DNA of 64,000 bases from Sandaracinus amylolyticus. GTDB taxonomy: Bacteria; Myxococcota_A; Polyangia; Polyangiales; Sandaracinaceae. Position numbers and translations under genes: made by a program. Location of the stretch: positions 1,488,001-1,552,000 of the forward strand of contig NZ_CP070225.1 of NCBI RefSeq assembly GCF_021631985.1, in the 5' to 3' direction. Below are positions 45,565-56,982 of this stretch, one piece after another. Below the pieces are notes generated by a model, which saw only the letters and a list, made by a program, of their open reading frames with translations, was not told where the DNA came from and did not search any database. Positions within the stretch are counted from its first letter, which is position 1; every line of letters starts with the position of its first letter.

Positions 45565-48500
45565 TCAGAGCGTGCAGACGCCGAGCGAGCACGTCCCCGC
45601 CACGCACGGCGGGCCGTCGCCGCAGCGGCAGGTGCCGGCGACGCACGAGTCGGCGCTCGCCGGGTCGCACGGGGTGTTGCACGCGCCGCAGTGCTCGATC
45701 GACGACGAGGTGTCGGTCTCGCAGCCCGCGGCCGTCGTGCAGTCTCCGAAGCCGCTGGTGCAGCTGCACGCGCGCGCGCTGCAGGTCGCGTTCGGACCGC
45801 AGTCGTTGTTGCACGCGCCGCAGTGCGCGGCGGTGGTGCGGAGATCGGTCTCGCAGCCCGGCGCCGCGGTGCAGTCGCCGAAGTTGCCGCCACACGTGCA
45901 CGCGGTGCCGACGCAGTTGGAGCCCGGTCCGCACGCGTTGCCGCACGCGCCGCAGTGCGCGTCGGTCGAGCGCAGATCGGTCTCGCATCCCGCGGCCGCG
46001 GTGCAGTCGCCGAAGTTGACGGCGCAGCCGCACGCGCTGCCGGAGCACGTCGCGTTCGGTCCGCAGTCGTTGTTGCACGCGCCGCAGTGCGCAGTGGTGG
46101 TGCGGAGATCGCTCTCGCATCCCGCGGCGCCGGTGCAGTTGCCGAAGCTCGGCGCGCACATGCACCCGCTGCCGACGCAGCTCGCGTTGGGACCGCAGTT
46201 GTTGCCGCACGCGCCGCAGTGCGCGGCGGTGGTGCGGAGATCGGTCTCGCATCCCGCGGTCGCGGTGCAGTCGCCGAAGCTCGGGGCGCACATGCAACCG
46301 CCGCCCGCGCACGTCGCGTTGGGGCCGCAGTCGTTGCCGCAGCGCCCGCAGTGCGCGGCGGTGGTGCGGAGATCGGTCTCGCATCCCGCGCCGCCGCTGC
46401 AGTCGCCGAAGTTGGCGAGGCACACGCAGCTCCGGCCCGTGCAGGTCTGGTTCGCGCTGCACGCGACGCCGCACGCGCCGCAGTTCGACACCGAGGTGCG
46501 CAGATCGGTCTCGCACCCGAGCGTGGCCGCGCTGCAGTCGCCGAAGTTGGTGTCGCACGAGCACCCGCCGCCGGTGCAGGTCGCGTTCGCGCCGCAGCGG
46601 ATGTTGCACCCGCCGCAGTGCTCCTCGTCGCTGCGGGTGTCGATCTCGCAGCCGTTGCCGTCGACGCCGTCGCAGTTCGCGCGGCCCGCGGTGCAGCTGC
46701 CGGTCTGGCAGGCGCTGTCGACGCACACCGCGTTGGCGCCGGCGCGGGTGCAGACGTTGCGGCAGACGCCGCAGTGGTTGGAGTCGGTGCGGGTGTCGGT
46801 CTCGCAGCCGGTCGCGGGGTTGGTGTCGCAGTCGGCGAAGCCGGGGTCGCAGGTGCAGCGACCGGCGACGCACGTCGAGCTCACGCCGCAGACGTTGCCG
46901 CAGACGCCGCAGTTGTTCTCGTCGGTCTGGGTGTCGACGCAGCCCGCGCCGCAGCACGTCGCGCCCGCGTCGCACGGGCTGCCCAGCGTGCCGCAGGAGC
47001 ACGATCCATCGACGCAGCGATCCGACGCGTCGTCGCACGCGAGGCCGCAGAAGCCGCAGTTCGCGACGTCGGTCTGGAGATCGCGGCAGCCCGCGCCGCT
47101 GCAGCACGTGGTGCCGCTGGTGCACGCGCCGAGCGCGCCGCCCTGCGAGCTGCAGTCGCACACGCCGCCGATGCACACGTCGGCGACGACGTTGCCGCCC
47201 GCGACGTTGCAGGCGACGCGGCAGCCGCCGCAGTGGAAGACGCTGGTGAGGAAGTCGGTGACGCACGCGCCCGTGCCGGCGCACGCAGCGCCGAGGCGCG
47301 CGTCGCCGAGCACGCAGCCGCTCGGGCCGTAGGGCAGGCCCGCGACCGGCGTGCCGAGGACCTCGTTGGTCGTGCCGTCGCAGTCGTCGTCGAGCGTGTT
47401 GCACGCCTCGGGCTGACCGGGGGCCTGCGCCGGGTCCTCGGGGCCGCAGTCGGCGGGCGGGACGTACTGATCGGCGTCGGTGTCGGCGCCCGCGCAGTCG
47501 ACGTCGGCGATGCAGCTCTGCGCGATGCCGTCGCCGCAGCGCTCGGGCGCGCCGGGGTAGACGCTCGCGCTGGTGTCGTCGCAGTCGGCGCCGCCCGCGG
47601 CGAGCGACGCGAAGCCGTCGCGATCGGCGTCGCCCGCGGGGCACGCGGAGTCGACGCCGTTCTGGTCCTCGTCGAGGCCGTTGCCGCAGAAGTCGATCGC
47701 GCCGGGGTGGATGCCGGCGTCGCAGTCGTCGCAGTCGCAGTCGTTGCGCGCGCAGCCGGCGCCGGGGGCGACGTCGGTGCACGCCGGCGTGCCGTCGCGA
47801 TCGAGATCGTCGTCGGTGCAGTCGGGCGCGTCGTCGACGAAGCCGTTGCAGTCCTCGTCGCGCGCGACGGCGTCGGGATCGTCGCGCGGCGTGCACACCT
47901 CGGTCGCGCCGGGGAAGACCTCGGGATCGGTGTCGTCGCAGTCGGGCGAGCCGCCGGTCTCGCGATCGGCCTCGAAGCCGTCGCCGTCCTGATCGCAGAT
48001 GCCGTCGCGGCCGTCGCAGTCCTGATCGACTCCGTCGCGACAGAGCTCGGTCGCGCCGGGGTTGATCTCGGGGACGCCGTCCTCGCAGTCGCAGGTGCCG
48101 GGCGCGTCGGCTGCGCTGCACGAGCGCCAGTCGTCGCCGTCGCGATCCTCGCACTCGGCGTCGCGACCGTCGCAGTCCTGGTCGACGTCGTCGCGGCAGA
48201 GCTCGGGCGCGCCGGGGTGGATCGTGGCGTCGGCGTCGTTGCAGTCGGCGCCTTCGGTGCTGTCGCACGCGAAGTCGCAGGACGTGGTGCGCCCTTCTTC
48301 GCCGGGGTCGCGGCACGCGGCGCCGGGATCGACGGGGAACGCGTCGCCGTCGGCGTCGAGGTCCTCGCCGATCGGGCCGACGAGGAGCACGGTGTCGCGC
48401 ACCACGCCGCCCGCGTCGTAGCAGCGCGTCGCGACGAAGCGCTGCGTCGCGTCGCGCCCCGTCGCGACGACGTGCACCAGCACGCGCATCGGTCCGGGCA

Positions 48501-48750
48501 GGGGCACGGCGACGCGCACCGGCTCGCCGGTCGCGATGTCCTCGGCGGTGCGGCGCACCGGGCGCGGGCTGGTGCGCGTGGGCGGGCGCTCTCCCGAGAG
48601 ATCGATGACGGTGACCTGCAGCGTCTCGACGTCGCCTTGCGAGCGGGCTTCGATCAGGACCGCGTGCTCGGGCTGGGCGCAGCCCGGGAGGGATGCGGCG
48701 GTGCAGACGAGGAACGAAGCGAAGAGCGCGCGCGCGCGACCTGGCGACAC
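45565..48750 (-). CDS. Large MopE/cysteine-repeat lipoprotein
   Basis: 1,061 residues from GTG 48750. Signal peptide with lipobox SLPGC. After a beta-rich N-terminal domain comes a calcium-type Asp-rich region (about 130-430) with repeats of the MopE pattern (GADCNDADATIHPGAPELC, QDCDGRD, DGDGF). After a bridging Cys-rich part, nine tandem units of about 44 residues each begin GCETDLRTTAAHCGACG and contain CGPNATC and FGDCT. Eight to nine Cys per unit suggest a rigid disulfide-stabilised stalk. Such proteins are common surface or adhesion-type lipoproteins of myxobacteria. No catalytic motif. The downstream antiporter starts 11 bp later. Confidence 0.88.
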   Translation of the reverse strand: MSPGRARALFASFLVCTAASLPGCAQPEHAVLIEARSQGDVETLQVTVIDLSGERPPTRTSPRPVRRTAEDIATGEPVRVAVPLPGPMRVLVHVVATGRDATQRFVATRCYDAGGVVRDTVLLVGPIGEDLDADGDAFPVDPGAACRDPGEEGRTTSCDFACDSTEGADCNDADATIHPGAPELCRDDVDQDCDGRDAECEDRDGDDWRSCSAADAPGTCDCEDGVPEINPGATELCRDGVDQDCDGRDGICDQDGDGFEADRETGGSPDCDDTDPEVFPGATEVCTPRDDPDAVARDEDCNGFVDDAPDCTDDDLDRDGTPACTDVAPGAGCARNDCDCDDCDAGIHPGAIDFCGNGLDEDQNGVDSACPAGDADRDGFASLAAGGADCDDTSASVYPGAPERCGDGIAQSCIADVDCAGADTDADQYVPPADCGPEDPAQAPGQPEACNTLDDDCDGTTNEVLGTPVAGLPYGPSGCVLGDARLGAACAGTGACVTDFLTSVFHCGGCRVACNVAGGNVVADVCIGGVCDCSSQGGALGACTSGTTCCSGAGCRDLQTDVANCGFCGLACDDASDRCVDGSCSCGTLGSPCDAGATCCGAGCVDTQTDENNCGVCGNVCGVSSTCVAGRCTCDPGFADCDTNPATGCETDTRTDSNHCGVCRNVCTRAGANAVCVDSACQTGSCTAGRANCDGVDGNGCEIDTRSDEEHCGGCNIRCGANATCTGGGCSCDTNFGDCSAATLGCETDLRTSVSNCGACGVACSANQTCTGRSCVCLANFGDCSGGAGCETDLRTTAAHCGRCGNDCGPNATCAGGGCMCAPSFGDCTATAGCETDLRTTAAHCGACGNNCGPNASCVGSGCMCAPSFGNCTGAAGCESDLRTTTAHCGACNNDCGPNATCSGSACGCAVNFGDCTAAAGCETDLRSTDAHCGACGNACGPGSNCVGTACTCGGNFGDCTAAPGCETDLRTTAAHCGACNNDCGPNATCSARACSCTSGFGDCTTAAGCETDTSSSIEHCGACNTPCDPASADSCVAGTCRCGDGPPCVAGTCSLGVCTL
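45640..46810. repeat. DNA-level tandem repeats of about 132 bp inside the lipoprotein gene
   Basis: Nine imperfect copies encode the 44-residue Cys-rich unit. Sequences such as GCCGCAGTGCGCGGCGGTGG and GAGATCGGTCTCGCA recur with about 132-135-bp spacing. High identity between copies suggests recent duplication or gene conversion; copy number could vary between strains. Confidence 0.75.
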
Positions 48751-51561: not shown

Positions 51562-51975
51562 CTAACTCTCTGCGACGTCGCGGACCAGCGCCTGCAGCTC
51601 TTCGAGGCGGAACGGCTTCTCGACCCGCGGGTTGGGCACGCGATCGAGGAACGCGCGCGCCTCCGCGGTGTACGCGCCGCCGGTCATGAAGATCATGCGC
51701 GCGGCGACGTCGGGCAGGGTGCCCACGAGCCAGTCGTGAAGGTCCATCCCCGAGACGTCGCGCATCGCGAGGTCACAGAGGATCGCGTCGAAGCTCGCGT
51801 CGCGCTCGAGCCGCTCGCGGGCTGCGGATCCCGACGTGACCACGTCCACGTCGTGCTCGTCGCCGAGCAGGATCTGAAGCGTCCGCGCGAGGTGCGGCTC
51901 GTCGTCGACGATCAGGAGACGCCGACGGCGCCCCTGCCGAGCGGGCTTCTCGGTCGAGATGCTCGCCATGTCCAT
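51562..51975 (-). CDS. Single-domain response regulator
   Basis: 137 residues from the ATG at 51975, which has GGAGTGGGGGG upstream; ATGs at 51987 and 51969 are alternatives. REC fold: LLIVDDEPHLARTLQILL (acidic pair), phospho-acceptor Asp in DAILCDLAMRDVSGMDL, IFMTGGAYT and the conserved Lys in PRVEKPFRLEEL. There is no output domain, so it probably works by protein contact or as a phosphate relay. It is divergent from the sensor-kinase operon at 52088, so the two may be functionally related. Confidence 0.9.
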   Translation of the reverse strand: MDMASISTEKPARQGRRRRLLIVDDEPHLARTLQILLGDEHDVDVVTSGSAARERLERDASFDAILCDLAMRDVSGMDLHDWLVGTLPDVAARMIFMTGGAYTAEARAFLDRVPNPRVEKPFRLEELQALVRDVAES

Positions 51976-52087
51976 TTTACCCCCCACTCCCGCCCCCCCG
52001 GGCAGAGGGGCAGCCTAGCAACACGAGGGCGCAAAATTCAATCGCTCATCGCCAAGCCGCGATCACTTCCCAAGCAATCACACGCTG

Positions 52088-53647
52088 ATGCACTCTCGAT
52101 CGGCGATGCGCCTGCGCGCCGCGCCCCTCGTGCTCGTCGCGATCATGGGGATCGCCGCGTGCGATCGACAGACGTGGCGCGATGTCCCGCGCGAGTGGTC
52201 CGACGCGCAGGAGCGATGGCACACCCAGCGCGACCCCGACGCGTGGCGCGCGTGGGACGCGATCGACGCGACGACGCCCGAGGGACGCGAGGCCCATCGA
52301 CTGCTCGCCGAGGCCGACACGCTGTATCGCGAGGGCATCGCGCGGGTCGACGAGGGCGATCCCGATGCGCGTCGATCGTTCGAGGACGCGCTCTTGCTCG
52401 CGCCGATGGATCCGCGCCTGAACCTGCCGCTCGCCCGCGCGTTCCGGCGGCGCGCCGATCTCGACCCCGAGAACCCGCACCTCTTCATCCGCGCGGCGTT
52501 CACGTACCGGAAGTTCCTCCTGCTCGTGCCCGAGGATCCCGACGCGGCGATCGCGCGGCGCGAGCTCGAGCAGCTCGATCCCGAGGCGGCCGCGTGGCTC
52601 GATGCGCTGGGGCCCGAGCCGCAGGCGGCGAGCGCGACGAGCGGGGCCGATGCCGCGTCGTGGCTCGCGCTCGCGTCGCTGGTGCTCGCGCTGATCGCGC
52701 TCGTGCTGTTGATGCTGCGACCGGGACGTCGGGTGCGATCGCTCGAGGAGCTCGCGTCGTCGCGCCCCGAGCTGCACCCGGCGATCGCGTACCTCGTGTC
52801 GGGGCTGCGGCACGAGCTGCTCAAGCATCGCATCGGCGCGGTCGCGAGCGCGGTGGAGGCGCTCGCGGAAGGGCGCGCGAGCGTGCCGCAGCGCGAGTTC
52901 GTGAGCGGTCGTCTGTTCGGCGGCGAGCCACTGCGCGACGCGTGGGAAGGGCACCTGCGCGCGTTCGAGCGCGCGCTCGGGCCGGAGCTCGATCTGCATC
53001 GTCGCGATCGCGAATTCGCGCGCGCAGGCAAGGCGATCGTGGCGATCGCGAAGCTCGAGGGCGCGCTGCGTGCCGGGGACGCGAAGGCGATGGCGAAGCT
53101 GCGCCGCGCGCACGAGGAGCTGCGCGCGCTCGATCGGAGGCTCGCATCGCTCGTCGCGAAGCTCGTGCGCACGCACGTCGATGCCGGGCTCTTGCGCGAC
53201 GTCGTGGACGAGGTGCGGAAGGAGTACGCGCCTTCGCGCGTCGCGCTCGACGCCCTCGCGATCGAAGCCCCCGATCCCGCGCCTGCGATCGAGGTGTTCC
53301 GCGTGGATCTCGTGCTCGTGCTGAAGAACGTGGTGCGCAACGCGATCCTCGCGGTCGGTCGCGCCGAGGCGCCGCGACGCATCCGGCTCGACGTGCGCAC
53401 CGAGCTCGAGCCGACGGGCGAGGAGAACGTCGTGATCCGCGTGCACGACACGAGCCCCGACGCGCTGACGACCGAGGCGATCTACGAGCGCCGCGTGGGG
53501 AGCGGGCTCGGGCTCGTGACCGCGGCGCTGAGCCGATACGATGGCGCGATCGTGGTCGAGCCGGGCGAGACGGGCTGGGCGAAGGCGGTCGCGCTGCGCT
53601 TCTTTCGTGTGTACGACGAAGGGTCGGCGCGCGTGGAGGCCGCGTGA
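52088..53647 (+). CDS. Sensor histidine kinase with lipoprotein-like N-terminus and TPR-like sensor
   Basis: 519 residues. An N-terminal signal with lipobox-like IAAC (Cys25) is followed by a helical, TPR-like region (about 60-165, including DPDARRSFEDALLLAPMDPR), a membrane helix (191-210, WLALASLVLALIALVLLMLR) and a cytoplasmic kinase part. The putative phospho-His is in SGLRHELLKHRIG (about 238-250). The ATPase lobe has N-box FRVDLVLVLKNVVRNAILAV, G1 VIRVHDTSPD (shortened DxGxG) and G2 GSGLGLVTAALSRYDG. If Cys25 is lipidated, the protein is anchored twice. It heads a four-gene operon; the next gene overlaps its stop by 4 bp. Confidence 0.82.
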   Translation: MHSRSAMRLRAAPLVLVAIMGIAACDRQTWRDVPREWSDAQERWHTQRDPDAWRAWDAIDATTPEGREAHRLLAEADTLYREGIARVDEGDPDARRSFEDALLLAPMDPRLNLPLARAFRRRADLDPENPHLFIRAAFTYRKFLLLVPEDPDAAIARRELEQLDPEAAAWLDALGPEPQAASATSGADAASWLALASLVLALIALVLLMLRPGRRVRSLEELASSRPELHPAIAYLVSGLRHELLKHRIGAVASAVEALAEGRASVPQREFVSGRLFGGEPLRDAWEGHLRAFERALGPELDLHRRDREFARAGKAIVAIAKLEGALRAGDAKAMAKLRRAHEELRALDRRLASLVAKLVRTHVDAGLLRDVVDEVRKEYAPSRVALDALAIEAPDPAPAIEVFRVDLVLVLKNVVRNAILAVGRAEAPRRIRLDVRTELEPTGEENVVIRVHDTSPDALTTEAIYERRVGSGLGLVTAALSRYDGAIVVEPGETGWAKAVALRFFRVYDEGSARVEAA

Positions 53648-54072
53648 AGATCCTGCTCATCGAAGACGGCGGCGAGTACGAGGAGTTCGCGCGGCTCTTC
53701 CTGAGCGAGCACGAGCTCGCGGCTGCGCACTCGGCGTCGGAAGCGCTCGCGCGCGCGGCGGAGACGCGCTTCGATGCGTTCCTCGTCGATCTGCGCTTCG
53801 AGCGTGCACCGCAGGAGTCGCTGGTCGGCGATCTCGACGACACCGCGCGCCGCCTCTTCGGTGGTGATCGCGCGCGCGCGCTGCGCTGGCTGAAGGATCA
53901 GCAGGGCACGCTGGTGCTCGCCGAGCTGCGCCGCGCGGGGCACGCGCAGCCCGCGCTCTTCGTGCACGACTTTCCGGCGCAGCGGCTCGCGAACCTGCGC
54001 CGCCTCTACGGCGACGTGCGCGCAGTGCCGGGCTTCGATGCAGCGGCGATCCGCGAGGCGCTCGGCGCATGA
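53644..54072 (+). CDS. REC-domain protein
   Basis: 142 residues from GTG 53644 (GTGA overlap with the kinase stop). The N-terminal half is REC-like: KILLIEDGGEYEEFARLFL (the second acidic residue of the usual DD pair is replaced by Gly), phospho-acceptor Asp49 in FDAFLVDLRFE. The beta5 Lys is not evident (ALFVHDFPAQRL). The C-terminal half ends with VRAVPGFDAAAIREALGA. Atypical receiver, probably phosphorylated slowly or not at all. Coupled on both sides by 4-bp overlaps. Confidence 0.72.
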   Translation: MKILLIEDGGEYEEFARLFLSEHELAAAHSASEALARAAETRFDAFLVDLRFERAPQESLVGDLDDTARRLFGGDRARALRWLKDQQGTLVLAELRRAGHAQPALFVHDFPAQRLANLRRLYGDVRAVPGFDAAAIREALGA

Positions 54073-54434
54073 GCGAGGCACGACGGCTCGCCGCGACGCT
54101 GCTGCACGACGTCGGCAAGTACGTCGCGCGCACCGCGCGCAACCTGCGCGACGGGCAGGCGATCGAGGCGCCCTTCGCGTCGATGTTGCTGCGCGACGTG
54201 TACGAGACCTACCGCGGGGCGCGCGCATCCGCGCGCTTCGAGGAGCTCGCGCAGCCGCTCGCGGCGCTCGTGCCCGACGTGCGGCTCGACGAGGTGCGCG
54301 CGCTGCTCGGTGCGATCGACGCGCGCGAGAACGAAGCACGCGCCGGAGATGCCGCCGCGCTGAGCGCGATCGCCCGCGATGCGCGGGTGATCGAGGAGAC
54401 CCTGCGCGCGATCGCGCGCGAACGGATGTCATGA
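54069..54434 (+). CDS. Unknown 121-residue helical protein in the two-component operon
   Basis: Starts ATGA over the REC stop and ends ATGA over the activator start. All-helical. The N-terminus LAATLLHDVGKYVARTARNL resembles the first helix of an HD or HPt-like bundle (His13-Asp14), but no HD metal site follows, so it may be a histidine phosphotransfer or adapter protein (speculative). No membrane segment. No family recognised. Confidence 0.7.
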   Translation: MSEARRLAATLLHDVGKYVARTARNLRDGQAIEAPFASMLLRDVYETYRGARASARFEELAQPLAALVPDVRLDEVRALLGAIDARENEARAGDAAALSAIARDARVIEETLRAIARERMS

Positions 54435-56134
54435 GCGCCACCCGCCCCAAGCTGCTCGTCGTCGACGACGGCGATCGATACGTCGAGCTCGCCCACGCGT
54501 TCTTGCGCGACTACGACTACGCGACGCGCTGCGATCAGCCCGGGCCCTGCTGGGAGTGCGCGCGACGCAGCGGCTGCACGCTCACCCACGCGCACGATGC
54601 GCGCGAGGCGGAGGAAGCGCTCGCGCGTCATCGCGACGTCGACGTCGTGCTGCTCGACGTCGCGTTCGACGTGCCCGAGGAGCGCCTGCTTCCGTCCGAC
54701 GAGCCCGACCTCGAGCGACGCCGTCGCCTGCAGGGCATCGACATCCTCGCGCACCTGCGTCGCGCGCGCGGCGAGCTGCCCGTCGTGCTCATGACGTCGG
54801 AGGAGGAGATCGCGTTCGAGGACGCGGCCGAGGCGCTCTCGGTCGACGAGTTCGCGACGCTCGCCGGTGAAGCGGCATACGACGCGCGTGCGCTCTCGTT
54901 GCTCGTGGAGCGCGTGCTCGCGCGGCGCCGCGACTCGCCGGAGGCCGGCGGGTACACGTGGGGCGGCGCCGCGGCGATGGCGCGCCTGCGTCGCGATGCG
55001 CTCGCCCTCGCGCGCACCTCGCTGCCGATGTTGGTCCTCGGCGAGACCGGCACCGGCAAGAGCGCGCTCGCGGAGCGGGTGATCCATCCCGCGACGCGGC
55101 GCAGCGGGCCCTTCGTCGCGGTCGATCTCGCGGCGATCCCCGAGACGCTGATCGCGTCGGAGCTCTTCGGCACCACGCGCGGCGCGTTCAGCGGTGCGGT
55201 CGATCGGCGCGGTCGGTTCGAGGAGGCGAGCGGCGGCACGCTCTTCCTCGACGAGATCGGGAACCTGCCGCCCGAGGCGCAGCGCATGTTGCTCCTCGCG
55301 CTGCAGGACGGACGCATCACGCGGCTCGGCGAGACCACGCCGCGCGCGGTGGACGTGAAGCTGATCGCCGCGACCAACGCGGACCTGCGCGCGAAGGTGA
55401 CGAGCGGCGCGTTCCGCGCCGATCTCTACGCGCGCTTGAACCCCGCGGCGCGCCTGGTGGTGCCGCCGCTTCGCGATCGGCTCGAGGATCTCGAGGAGCT
55501 CGCGCACGTGTTCGTGCGGCGGAAGCTCGCGGCGGGCGCCGACCGCGCGCTGCTCGCGGAGTACATGGAGGTCGCGGGGATCCGCGGCGCGCCGCACGCA
55601 GAGCTGCGGATCGCGGGGCGCGGCGGCGCGCTGAAGCCCCCGGCGCGGGGCGTGGGGTTCGTGCTCGCGCGATCGAGCCTCGACGAGCTGATGCGGCACG
55701 CGTGGCCGGGGAACGTGCGCGAGCTCGAGCTGCTGGTGGCGAGCGCGATCGTGTTCGCGCTCTCCGACGCGCTCGAGGCGGCGCGCGAAGGTCGCGGTGC
55801 GAGCGGCGAGCCTGCGCGCACGATCCCGATCCCCGCGAAGCTGATCCGCGAGCTGCTCGGCGCGCTGGCGCCCGACGTGGCGCCGAGCGAGAGAGGCCCG
55901 CGCGGCGCGGCGAGCTTCGACGTGCGCCCCGGCGCGTCGCTGCACGAGGTCGCGCGCAGCCTCGAGGCGCAGCTCTACGAGAGGCTCTTCGCCGAGACGA
56001 AGGGGGACTTCGACGCGATGGCGAGGCGCCTGCTCGAAGGTCGCGATCCGAGCGGCGCGCGCCGGGTGCGGCTGCGCTTCAACCAGCTCGGGCTGCGCGC
56101 GCGGAAGCCGTCTTCGCGCGGTCGCAAATCGTAG
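54431..56134 (+). CDS. REC-sigma54 activator with a four-cysteine insertion
   Basis: 567 residues. The receiver has VVDDGDRYVEL, phospho-acceptor Asp76 (VVLLDVAFD) and VVLMTSEEE. It is expanded by an insertion holding four cysteines (Cys34, Cys40, Cys43, Cys49; C-x5-C-x2-C-x5-C) and by a charged loop near 83-100. The AAA+ domain has Walker A GETGTGKS (204-211), the sigma-54 loop as GAFSGA (251-256) rather than GAFTGA, and Walker B TLFLDEIGN. The C-terminus (LRFNQLGLRARK) is a Fis-like helix-turn-helix. Likely activates the sigma-54-type promoter at 56211, directly after its own gene. Confidence 0.88.
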   Translation: MSATRPKLLVVDDGDRYVELAHAFLRDYDYATRCDQPGPCWECARRSGCTLTHAHDAREAEEALARHRDVDVVLLDVAFDVPEERLLPSDEPDLERRRRLQGIDILAHLRRARGELPVVLMTSEEEIAFEDAAEALSVDEFATLAGEAAYDARALSLLVERVLARRRDSPEAGGYTWGGAAAMARLRRDALALARTSLPMLVLGETGTGKSALAERVIHPATRRSGPFVAVDLAAIPETLIASELFGTTRGAFSGAVDRRGRFEEASGGTLFLDEIGNLPPEAQRMLLLALQDGRITRLGETTPRAVDVKLIAATNADLRAKVTSGAFRADLYARLNPAARLVVPPLRDRLEDLEELAHVFVRRKLAAGADRALLAEYMEVAGIRGAPHAELRIAGRGGALKPPARGVGFVLARSSLDELMRHAWPGNVRELELLVASAIVFALSDALEAAREGRGASGEPARTIPIPAKLIRELLGALAPDVAPSERGPRGAASFDVRPGASLHEVARSLEAQLYERLFAETKGDFDAMARRLLEGRDPSGARRVRLRFNQLGLRARKPSSRGRKS

Positions 56135-56271: not shown

Positions 56272-56982
56272 ATGGCGACGAGCGAGAACAGCGTGATGGT
56301 GGCCCTTTCGGAGCTCCGGCAGCTGGAGTCGGACCGGATCGAGGCGCAGCGTCGCGAGGAGGACGAGCGTCGTCGCGCCGAGGAGGCGAAGGCCGCGGAG
56401 GCGTCGCGTCGCGAGGTCGAGGCGCGCGCGGCGGCCGAGGCGGAGCGCGAGCGCGATCGCCTGTGCGTGGAGGCCGAGGCGCGGCTGAGGATCGAGGCGG
56501 AAGCGGCGCGCGATCGATCGCTCGACACCCTGCGCGCGCAGATCGCGGCGGTGCAGGCCGAGCGCGAGACGATGCGCAGCGAGCTCGAGGCGCGCATCGC
56601 GAGCGCGGAGTCGTCGCCCGCGTCGCGCCGAGGGCCGTGGGCGCTCGCGTTCGGTCTCTCGAGCCTGGTCGCTGCGGCGCTCGCGGGGGTGCTCGTGGTG
56701 CAGCGCGCGTCGCCGCCTCCGAGCGCTCCGCCGCCCGTGATCGAGCGAGTGGTGGTCGCGGCACCGGAGCCCGCGCCGATCGCAGCGCCGGAGATCGTCG
56801 AGGCCGAGCCCGCGGCGGTGGTCGAGGTCGCGCAGCCGGCGCGCCGGCGGCGGCCGGTGGATCGTGGTCGCGATCGGGCGCGCGAGGAGCCGCGCGATCT
56901 CTCGCACGACCTCGGGCTCGAAGAGGAGGGCGACGAGGTGCTGAGCGATCGCTTCCTGCACGATGCGACGCGCCCTCGCTGA
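56272..56982 (+). CDS. Coiled-coil single-pass membrane protein
   Basis: 236 residues from the ATG at 56272 (GGGAGG upstream). Residues about 12-118 form one long, Arg/Glu/Ala-rich coiled coil. A membrane helix follows at about 124-143 (ALAFGLSSLVAAALAGVLVV), then a Pro/Ala/Glu-rich spacer and a basic then acidic tail (RRRRPVDRGRDRAREEPRD; EEEGDE). The arrangement is like a TolA or TonB-type adapter, but with a coiled coil on the N-terminal side. No family recognised. It is the first gene after the sigma-54 promoter and is probably under the activator encoded just upstream (inference). Confidence 0.78.
   Translation: MATSENSVMVALSELRQLESDRIEAQRREEDERRRAEEAKAAEASRREVEARAAAEAERERDRLCVEAEARLRIEAEAARDRSLDTLRAQIAAVQAERETMRSELEARIASAESSPASRRGPWALAFGLSSLVAAALAGVLVVQRASPPPSAPPPVIERVVVAAPEPAPIAAPEIVEAEPAAVVEVAQPARRRRPVDRGRDRAREEPRDLSHDLGLEEEGDEVLSDRFLHDATRPR

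Follow-up and report, generated by a model that had tools for sequence, protein, structure and literature searches.

Phosphorelays in which a histidine kinase (HK), a single-domain response regulator (SDRR), a histidine phosphotransfer protein (HPt), and a terminal response regulator (RR) are four separate proteins constitute a recognised architecture (PMC12471899). In the Spo0 phosphorelay of Bacillus (KinA-E/Spo0F/Spo0B/Spo0A), a kinase, an output-less receiver, a kinase-derived phosphotransferase, and a DNA-binding receiver each occupy their own protein (PMC6136694, PMC12471899), and kinase-derived intermediate His phosphotransferases are also found in Alphaproteobacteria as ChpT (CckA-ChpT-CtrA) and PhyT (Pak-SdrG-PhyT-PhyR) (PMC3433190, PMC5898713). 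We analyzed a 64,000-nucleotide window of Sandaracinus amylolyticus (NZ_CP070225.1, assembly GCF_021631985.1, positions 1,488,001-1,552,000 of the forward strand) that carries four adjoining genes at 52088-56134, here called A to D. They encode a sensor histidine kinase (A), a single-domain receiver (B), a 121-amino-acid candidate phosphotransfer protein (C), and a receiver (REC)-sigma54 activator (D). We consider it likely that these proteins form a His-Asp-His-Asp phosphorelay of the Spo0 type that ends in sigma54-dependent transcription. In such a relay A, which joins a periplasmic TPR sensor, a membrane helix, and a kinase, would respond to a signal by phosphorylating its own H242. The phosphate would then move from H242 to D49 of B, from D49 to H13 of C, and from H13 to D76 of D, after which the AAA+ domain of D would open the sigma54 promoters of a presumptive regulon. 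C would act as a stand-alone copy of the phosphoacceptor domain of the kinase, without the ATPase.

The likeness to Spo0 is one of architecture, with the activity of C taken as that predicted from its sequence and model. The module differs from Spo0 in that its four genes form one operon or cluster, its terminal regulator is an NtrC-type sigma54 activator, both of its receivers lack the conserved lysine, and C matches the His domain of its own kinase. In Spo0B, two subunits come together to make the bundle (PMC3433190), whereas C is predicted to be a single-chain bundle of ~121 residues with no ATPase remnant. ChpT and PhyT keep a degenerate ATPase-like domain and ordinary features of the dimerization and histidine phosphotransfer (DHp) domain, neither of which is found in C, and C has Lys at the fourth residue after the phosphoacceptor His (H+4). 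Canonical HPt proteins (PF01627; Ypd1, ArcB, and CheA P1) share with C a four-helix bundle, predicted in the case of C, and one conserved His on a helix. They differ in having the motif HxxKG rather than HDxGK and a small residue rather than Lys at H+4, and C has no Pfam Hpt match (20 members) and a profile score against Hpt at null level. A literature search, with most subscription journals outside its range, found no description of this module, which is apparently undescribed so far.

Conservation of the gene cluster

An earlier interpretation of this DNA, made from the letters and open reading frames (ORFs) alone (the sequence-only reading), had proposed that the four genes are linked through 4-bp ATGA/GTGA overlaps and that their products are made together as a signaling set. 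The junctions A/B, B/C, and C/D do read GTGA, ATGA, and ATGA, each a 4-bp overlap, and the idea of a joint set is supported by orthologues that adjoin one another and are conserved together. Orthologues were sought in 377 Myxococcota genomes. A plain protein search found C in 18 of these; by profile, the A kinase core was recovered from 99 genomes, B from 97 (counting strong matches), and C from 80. A and B occurred together in 95 genomes and A, B, and C in 73 of the 377, with genome-level co-occurrence p values (Fisher) of 1e-81 for A-B, 4e-51 for A-C, and 3e-50 for B-C. The kinship of the genomes makes these values too small, but the association clearly exceeds chance. In 83 of the 95 genomes, A and B lay no more than 1 kb apart on the same strand. 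Where the complete set stood on a single contig, the order was C-(D)-A-B in 41 cases and A-B-C-(D) in 5; A-B-C-D is the order of the window's own bacterial order, and C-D-B-A was seen in one further family. D lay directly 3' of C wherever the contig reached, the exceptions being L034, in which H13 is Gln, and L092. The scattering of the four genes that would have spoken against a module was thus not seen. The module is real and widely conserved, being present in about a quarter of the sampled Myxococcota genomes; C would represent a phosphotransfer family that apparently lacks annotation. Myxococcota are a phylum known for many orphan regulators.

The position of C upstream of D is kept across families, and comparison of C with its nearest relative gave a dN/dS (nonsynonymous/synonymous substitution rates) of 0.07/0.18. 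C is on these grounds a true gene and not the spurious frame that the sequence-only reading had allowed for.

Catalytic residues and the lysine pattern

The kinase assignment of A draws on its model and its conserved residues. The AlphaFold2 (AF2) model matched histidine kinases by Foldseek (probability 1.00, E down to 3e-7), residues 360-509 did so by VIA-align (Z 14-15), and the ATP-binding (CA) fold of histidine kinases is predicted for A, including its N, G1, and G2 residues. N418, D454, and G473 were invariant where aligned (75 of 76 orthologues), and HATPase_c was matched in 12 of 14 relatives. The H-box of A, RHE[LVI][LI]KH, retained H242 and H247 in 76/76 sequences of the orthologue alignment, in which residue 246 was Lys in 74 and Arg in 2. 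No HisKA-type dimerization domain was matched among 14 members, and profile comparison of the A His domain with HisKA remained at null level. At the N terminus, the combination of a lipoprotein-like signal, a TPR-like sensor, and a membrane helix that had been proposed for this kinase was recovered as a lipobox, AF2 hairpins, and a predicted helix. Lipobox-like ends were also present in A of L003, L004, and L026, the long A orthologues gave significant matches to Pfam TPR models, and A in families other than that of the window had a far longer periplasmic region.

B has no output domain. Its receiver and that of D both carry the acidic pair and phospho-Asp of canonical receivers (PF00072) and lack the conserved beta5 lysine. 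That lysine, scored as absent when no Lys stood within 4 columns of the beta5-end position, was found in 0/71 B and 0/90 D orthologues (0/161 together), compared to 30/30 ordinary receivers of the same genome. The two receivers also have in common an extra segment between beta3 and alpha3 that ends in an invariant Q-G. In B orthologues the Thr/Ser position is mostly Tyr or His; in D, the D12-D13 acidic pair and D76 were kept in all aligned orthologues and the Thr in 90/90. The sequence-only reading had called the receivers odd, and they do depart from the norm, through the loss of the lysine; the residues it named were the wrong ones. It had seen a DG in place of the DD pair in both, but a check over 161 receivers showed the acidic pairs to be intact (E7-D8 in B, D12-D13 in D), and the G is the residue that follows the pair.

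The lysine is among the most conserved residues in bacterial signaling. Its absence from all B and D orthologues, together with the absence of Thr/Ser from most B, is what would be expected of a scaffold in which B and D are pseudo-receivers, C serves as an adapter or anti-activator by binding to the receiver of D, and signaling proceeds by binding alone, without phosphorylation. We consider such a scaffold quite improbable. Every B and every aligned D keeps the acidic pair and the phospho-Asp, the Thr never varies in D, and neither do the H-box, N-box, D, and G residues in A; such conservation would not be expected of pure scaffolds. Furthermore, Lys/Arg at H+4 in A and C offers a chemical replacement for the lost lysine.

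In 98% of HPts, H+4 is occupied by a small residue (PMC6341664). In the module the residue there was Lys or Arg in 76/76 A and 90/90 C (166/166), and in the controls from the same genome it was T/N in 27/27 HisKA domains and G in 8/8 clear Hpt domains. H+4 of the His domain would lie where the receiver's conserved lysine would sit. The loss of the receiver lysine (0/161) and the gain of Lys/Arg at H+4 (166/166) suggest that the catalytic charge is supplied by the His domain, and we propose that the A and C His domains provide the catalytic lysine of the B and D receivers in trans. If this is true, proteins can share a catalytic site between them, and the pathway would have built-in specificity. 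Of all the features of the module, this complementarity in lysines is the most surprising.

Relationships among the four proteins

The sequence-only reading had guessed that the 121-residue product of C is a phosphotransfer or adapter protein, and the predicted fold, the His, and the relationship to A described here are in keeping with that guess. AF2, run with six sequences, gave for C a four-helix bundle (mean predicted local distance difference test [pLDDT] score of 95) with H13 on the first helix. H13 was present in 88 of the 89 C orthologues aligned there, with Gln in L034 as the sole exception, D14 was present in 90/90, and residue 17 was Lys (85) or Arg (5) in 90/90. No Pfam family matched the window protein or 20 members, with Hpt, HD, SPOB_a, and other DHp families included in the search. 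An NCBIfam match to PaaN_2 (E 1.7e-4, in 1 of 20 members) was rejected as a composition artefact. Foldseek and VIA returned only generic helical bundles for the C model (talin VBS3, FAT domains, and designed proteins), with the rice HPt 1yvi_B at rank 33 (E 2.3), so the fold by itself does not prove an HPt, and when PDB sequences were searched with the C profile, the matches were all designed or coiled-coil proteins. At L034:460-861 lies a C-like paralogue that has Gln for His13, and no D was found in the stretch read there.

The string HDVGK in C resembles the HD-domain motif HDxGK, which raised the possibility that C is a small HD-type hydrolase or other enzyme and not a signaling protein. 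We regard this as scarcely credible and rejected it because the window C carries a single histidine, leaving the metal-binding histidines absent; the 20 members gave no Pfam HD match, and C is homologous to the A His domain. Of the two folds that the sequence-only reading had suggested looking for in this protein, an HPt-like four-helix bundle was predicted and an HD fold was unsupported.

The relationship of C to its own kinase was examined by profile comparison (hhalign). C aligned with the A His domain with a score of 33.6 over 129 columns, His on His, with the box H-[ED]-x-x-K common to both, and the score was 26.1 when the H-box was masked. Sixty column-shuffled nulls gave at most 15.7 and 40 reversed-rotated nulls at most 11.4; these nulls, and not a database, are the calibration of the score. 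The Hpt and HisKA domains of the same genome scored 15.9 and 13.3 against C, which is null level. The scores above the nulls show that C is a relative of the phosphoacceptor domain of its own kinase, and C has, on this comparison, the kinase-homologous His domain that characterizes Spo0B-type proteins.

The receivers of B and D were similarly related. Their profiles aligned with E 1e-22 and a score of 135 (28% identity over 141 columns, including the beta3-alpha3 segment), which exceeds the scores obtained against ordinary receivers for B (94; probability 98.7, E 3e-16) or D (120; E 7e-21). When a tree was built that included 30 ordinary receivers, B and D fell on one side of a branch with a Shimodaira-Hasegawa-like approximate likelihood ratio test (SH-aLRT) value of 93, which is suggestive only. 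Since the His domains of A and C are alike, as are the receivers of B and D, and the genes form the pairs A-B and C-D, the module was probably built by duplication of one His-protein/receiver pair. After the duplication, one copy would have lost the ATPase and its receiver would have gained the sigma54 module. The full proposal, that the receiver lysine moved to the donor His domains so that catalysis needs a residue of the partner, and that the relay arose from a duplicated pair with one ATPase stripped, is one that we put forward tentatively, as a possibility somewhat short of even.

The same pairing can be read differently. C, being kinase-derived and always paired with D, could dephosphorylate or otherwise restrain D, in the manner of a DHp-only phosphatase derived from a kinase, in a branched two-component system in which A phosphorylates B and D directly and B, paired with A, is a phosphate sink. 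Kinase-derived proteins may act negatively, and dephosphorylation of PhyR was the role initially ascribed to PhyT/PhyP (PMC5898713). We think this arrangement unlikely. The output-less B is always kept, and the phosphoacceptor His of C is present without exception in true members, both of which are more easily reconciled with an obligate relay than with a side branch. In addition, B and D are strongly diverged, which is what one would expect were A unable to use the two equally well.

Several observations weigh against the phosphorelay. HATPase_c in the window A scored E 0.0017, under the curated cut-off, and the protein has a degenerate G1 box. With neither Thr/Ser nor Lys, B could be a pseudo-receiver. 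C falls outside Pfam Hpt and its bundle fold is generic, and the A-C homology has the calibration given above. In ~20 genomes, A and B were present and C was not found by profile; in most of these with a readable D region, a C-like ORF precedes D, and several such ORFs carry H-D-x-x-K/R. Finally, in most genomes of genus g113, C-D and A-B lie at separate loci or contigs, with each pair kept.

Output domain, coordinates, and neighboring genes

The fourth gene had been named a REC-sigma54 activator, and D bears this out with a Sigma54_activat match of E 1e-54; sigma54 and REC models were matched in 18/18 relatives. Like NtrC-type enhancer-binding regulators, D combines a REC domain with a sigma54 AAA+ domain that has a GAFTGA-like loop and arginine-containing motifs, and rpoN is present in the genome. 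Unlike them, its receiver has no Lys and a long beta3-alpha3 segment, with a four-Cys insert in some orthologues, and Pfam gave no helix-turn-helix (HTH) match in the D C terminus. The conserved segment there is probably a DNA-binding helix-turn-helix, as assigned by eye. The four-Cys spacing was the same in 14/92 D orthologues from two distant groups (the window's order; L093, L109, L112, and L113), and the insert may provide a metal or redox input. In a scan for sigma54 -24/-12 sites, matches were no more enriched than in shuffled sequence and none was conserved, so the scan yielded no target.

Table 1. Positions within the window of the four genes and of the features assigned to their products
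Feature	Position	Strand	Remark
Gene A: sensor histidine kinase, 519 aa	52088..53647	+	alternative start ATG 52106
Lipoprotein-type signal of A ending in Cys25, lipobox IAAC	52106..52162	+	read from sequence
TPR-like periplasmic sensor of A, residues 33-173	52184..52606	+	AF2 helical hairpins, pLDDT mostly 77-97
Transmembrane helix of A, residues 186-210	52643..52717	+	AF2 helix, hydrophobic sequence
His phosphoacceptor domain of A, residues 227-360	52766..53167	+	H242 at 52811-52813; K246 at H+4
ATP-binding (CA) domain of A, residues 360-507	53165..53608	+	AF2, Foldseek, VIA-align
Gene B: single-domain receiver, 142 aa	53644..54072	+	GTG start
Phospho-Asp D49 of B	53788-53790	+	E7, D8, and D49 in 71/71 orthologues
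Gene C: His phosphotransfer candidate, 121 aa	54069..54434	+	
H13 of C, followed by D14	54105-54107	+	K17 (H+4) at 54117-54119
Gene D: REC-sigma54 activator, 567 aa	54431..56134	+	
D receiver	54431..54925	+	phospho-Asp D76 at 54656-54658; T122 kept; Lys lost
Cys cluster C34-x5-C40-x2-C43-x5-C49 inserted in D receiver	54530..54577	+	
Sigma54-interaction AAA+ domain of D	54947..55522	+	GAFSGA loop at 55181-55198
Conserved D C-terminal segment GDFxAMARxLL...RKVRLRFNQLGL	55928..56111	+	strongly conserved

The recurrent neighbors of the module vary by clade and include an Na+/H+ antiporter, a thioesterase, a TSP3-repeat lipoprotein, and an EspC-like receiver; since they differ by clade, the function of the module is not given by its context. 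In the window, the divergently transcribed gene at 51562-51987 (- strand) encodes a single-domain receiver that resembles the receivers of Myxococcus EspC/EspA (NCBIfam E 1.7e-38, far below the full-length cut-off), and an EspC/EspA-like receiver also adjoins the module in L006, L024, L025, and L026. The next gene downstream, at 56272-56982 (+ strand), encodes a coiled-coil protein that has a single membrane helix and matches no Pfam family, and a coiled-coil gene lies downstream of D in L005 and L024 too. In five f37-family genomes (L030, L032, L033, L035, and L036), the module adjoins a divergent lipoprotein that has TSP3-type repeats, looks thioredoxin-like by eye in some cases, and is a possible target of the module. 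Further upstream in the window, 45565-48750 (- strand) encodes a 1061-amino-acid protein with many near-identical Cys-rich repeats of the GCETDLRTTAAHCGACGN type.

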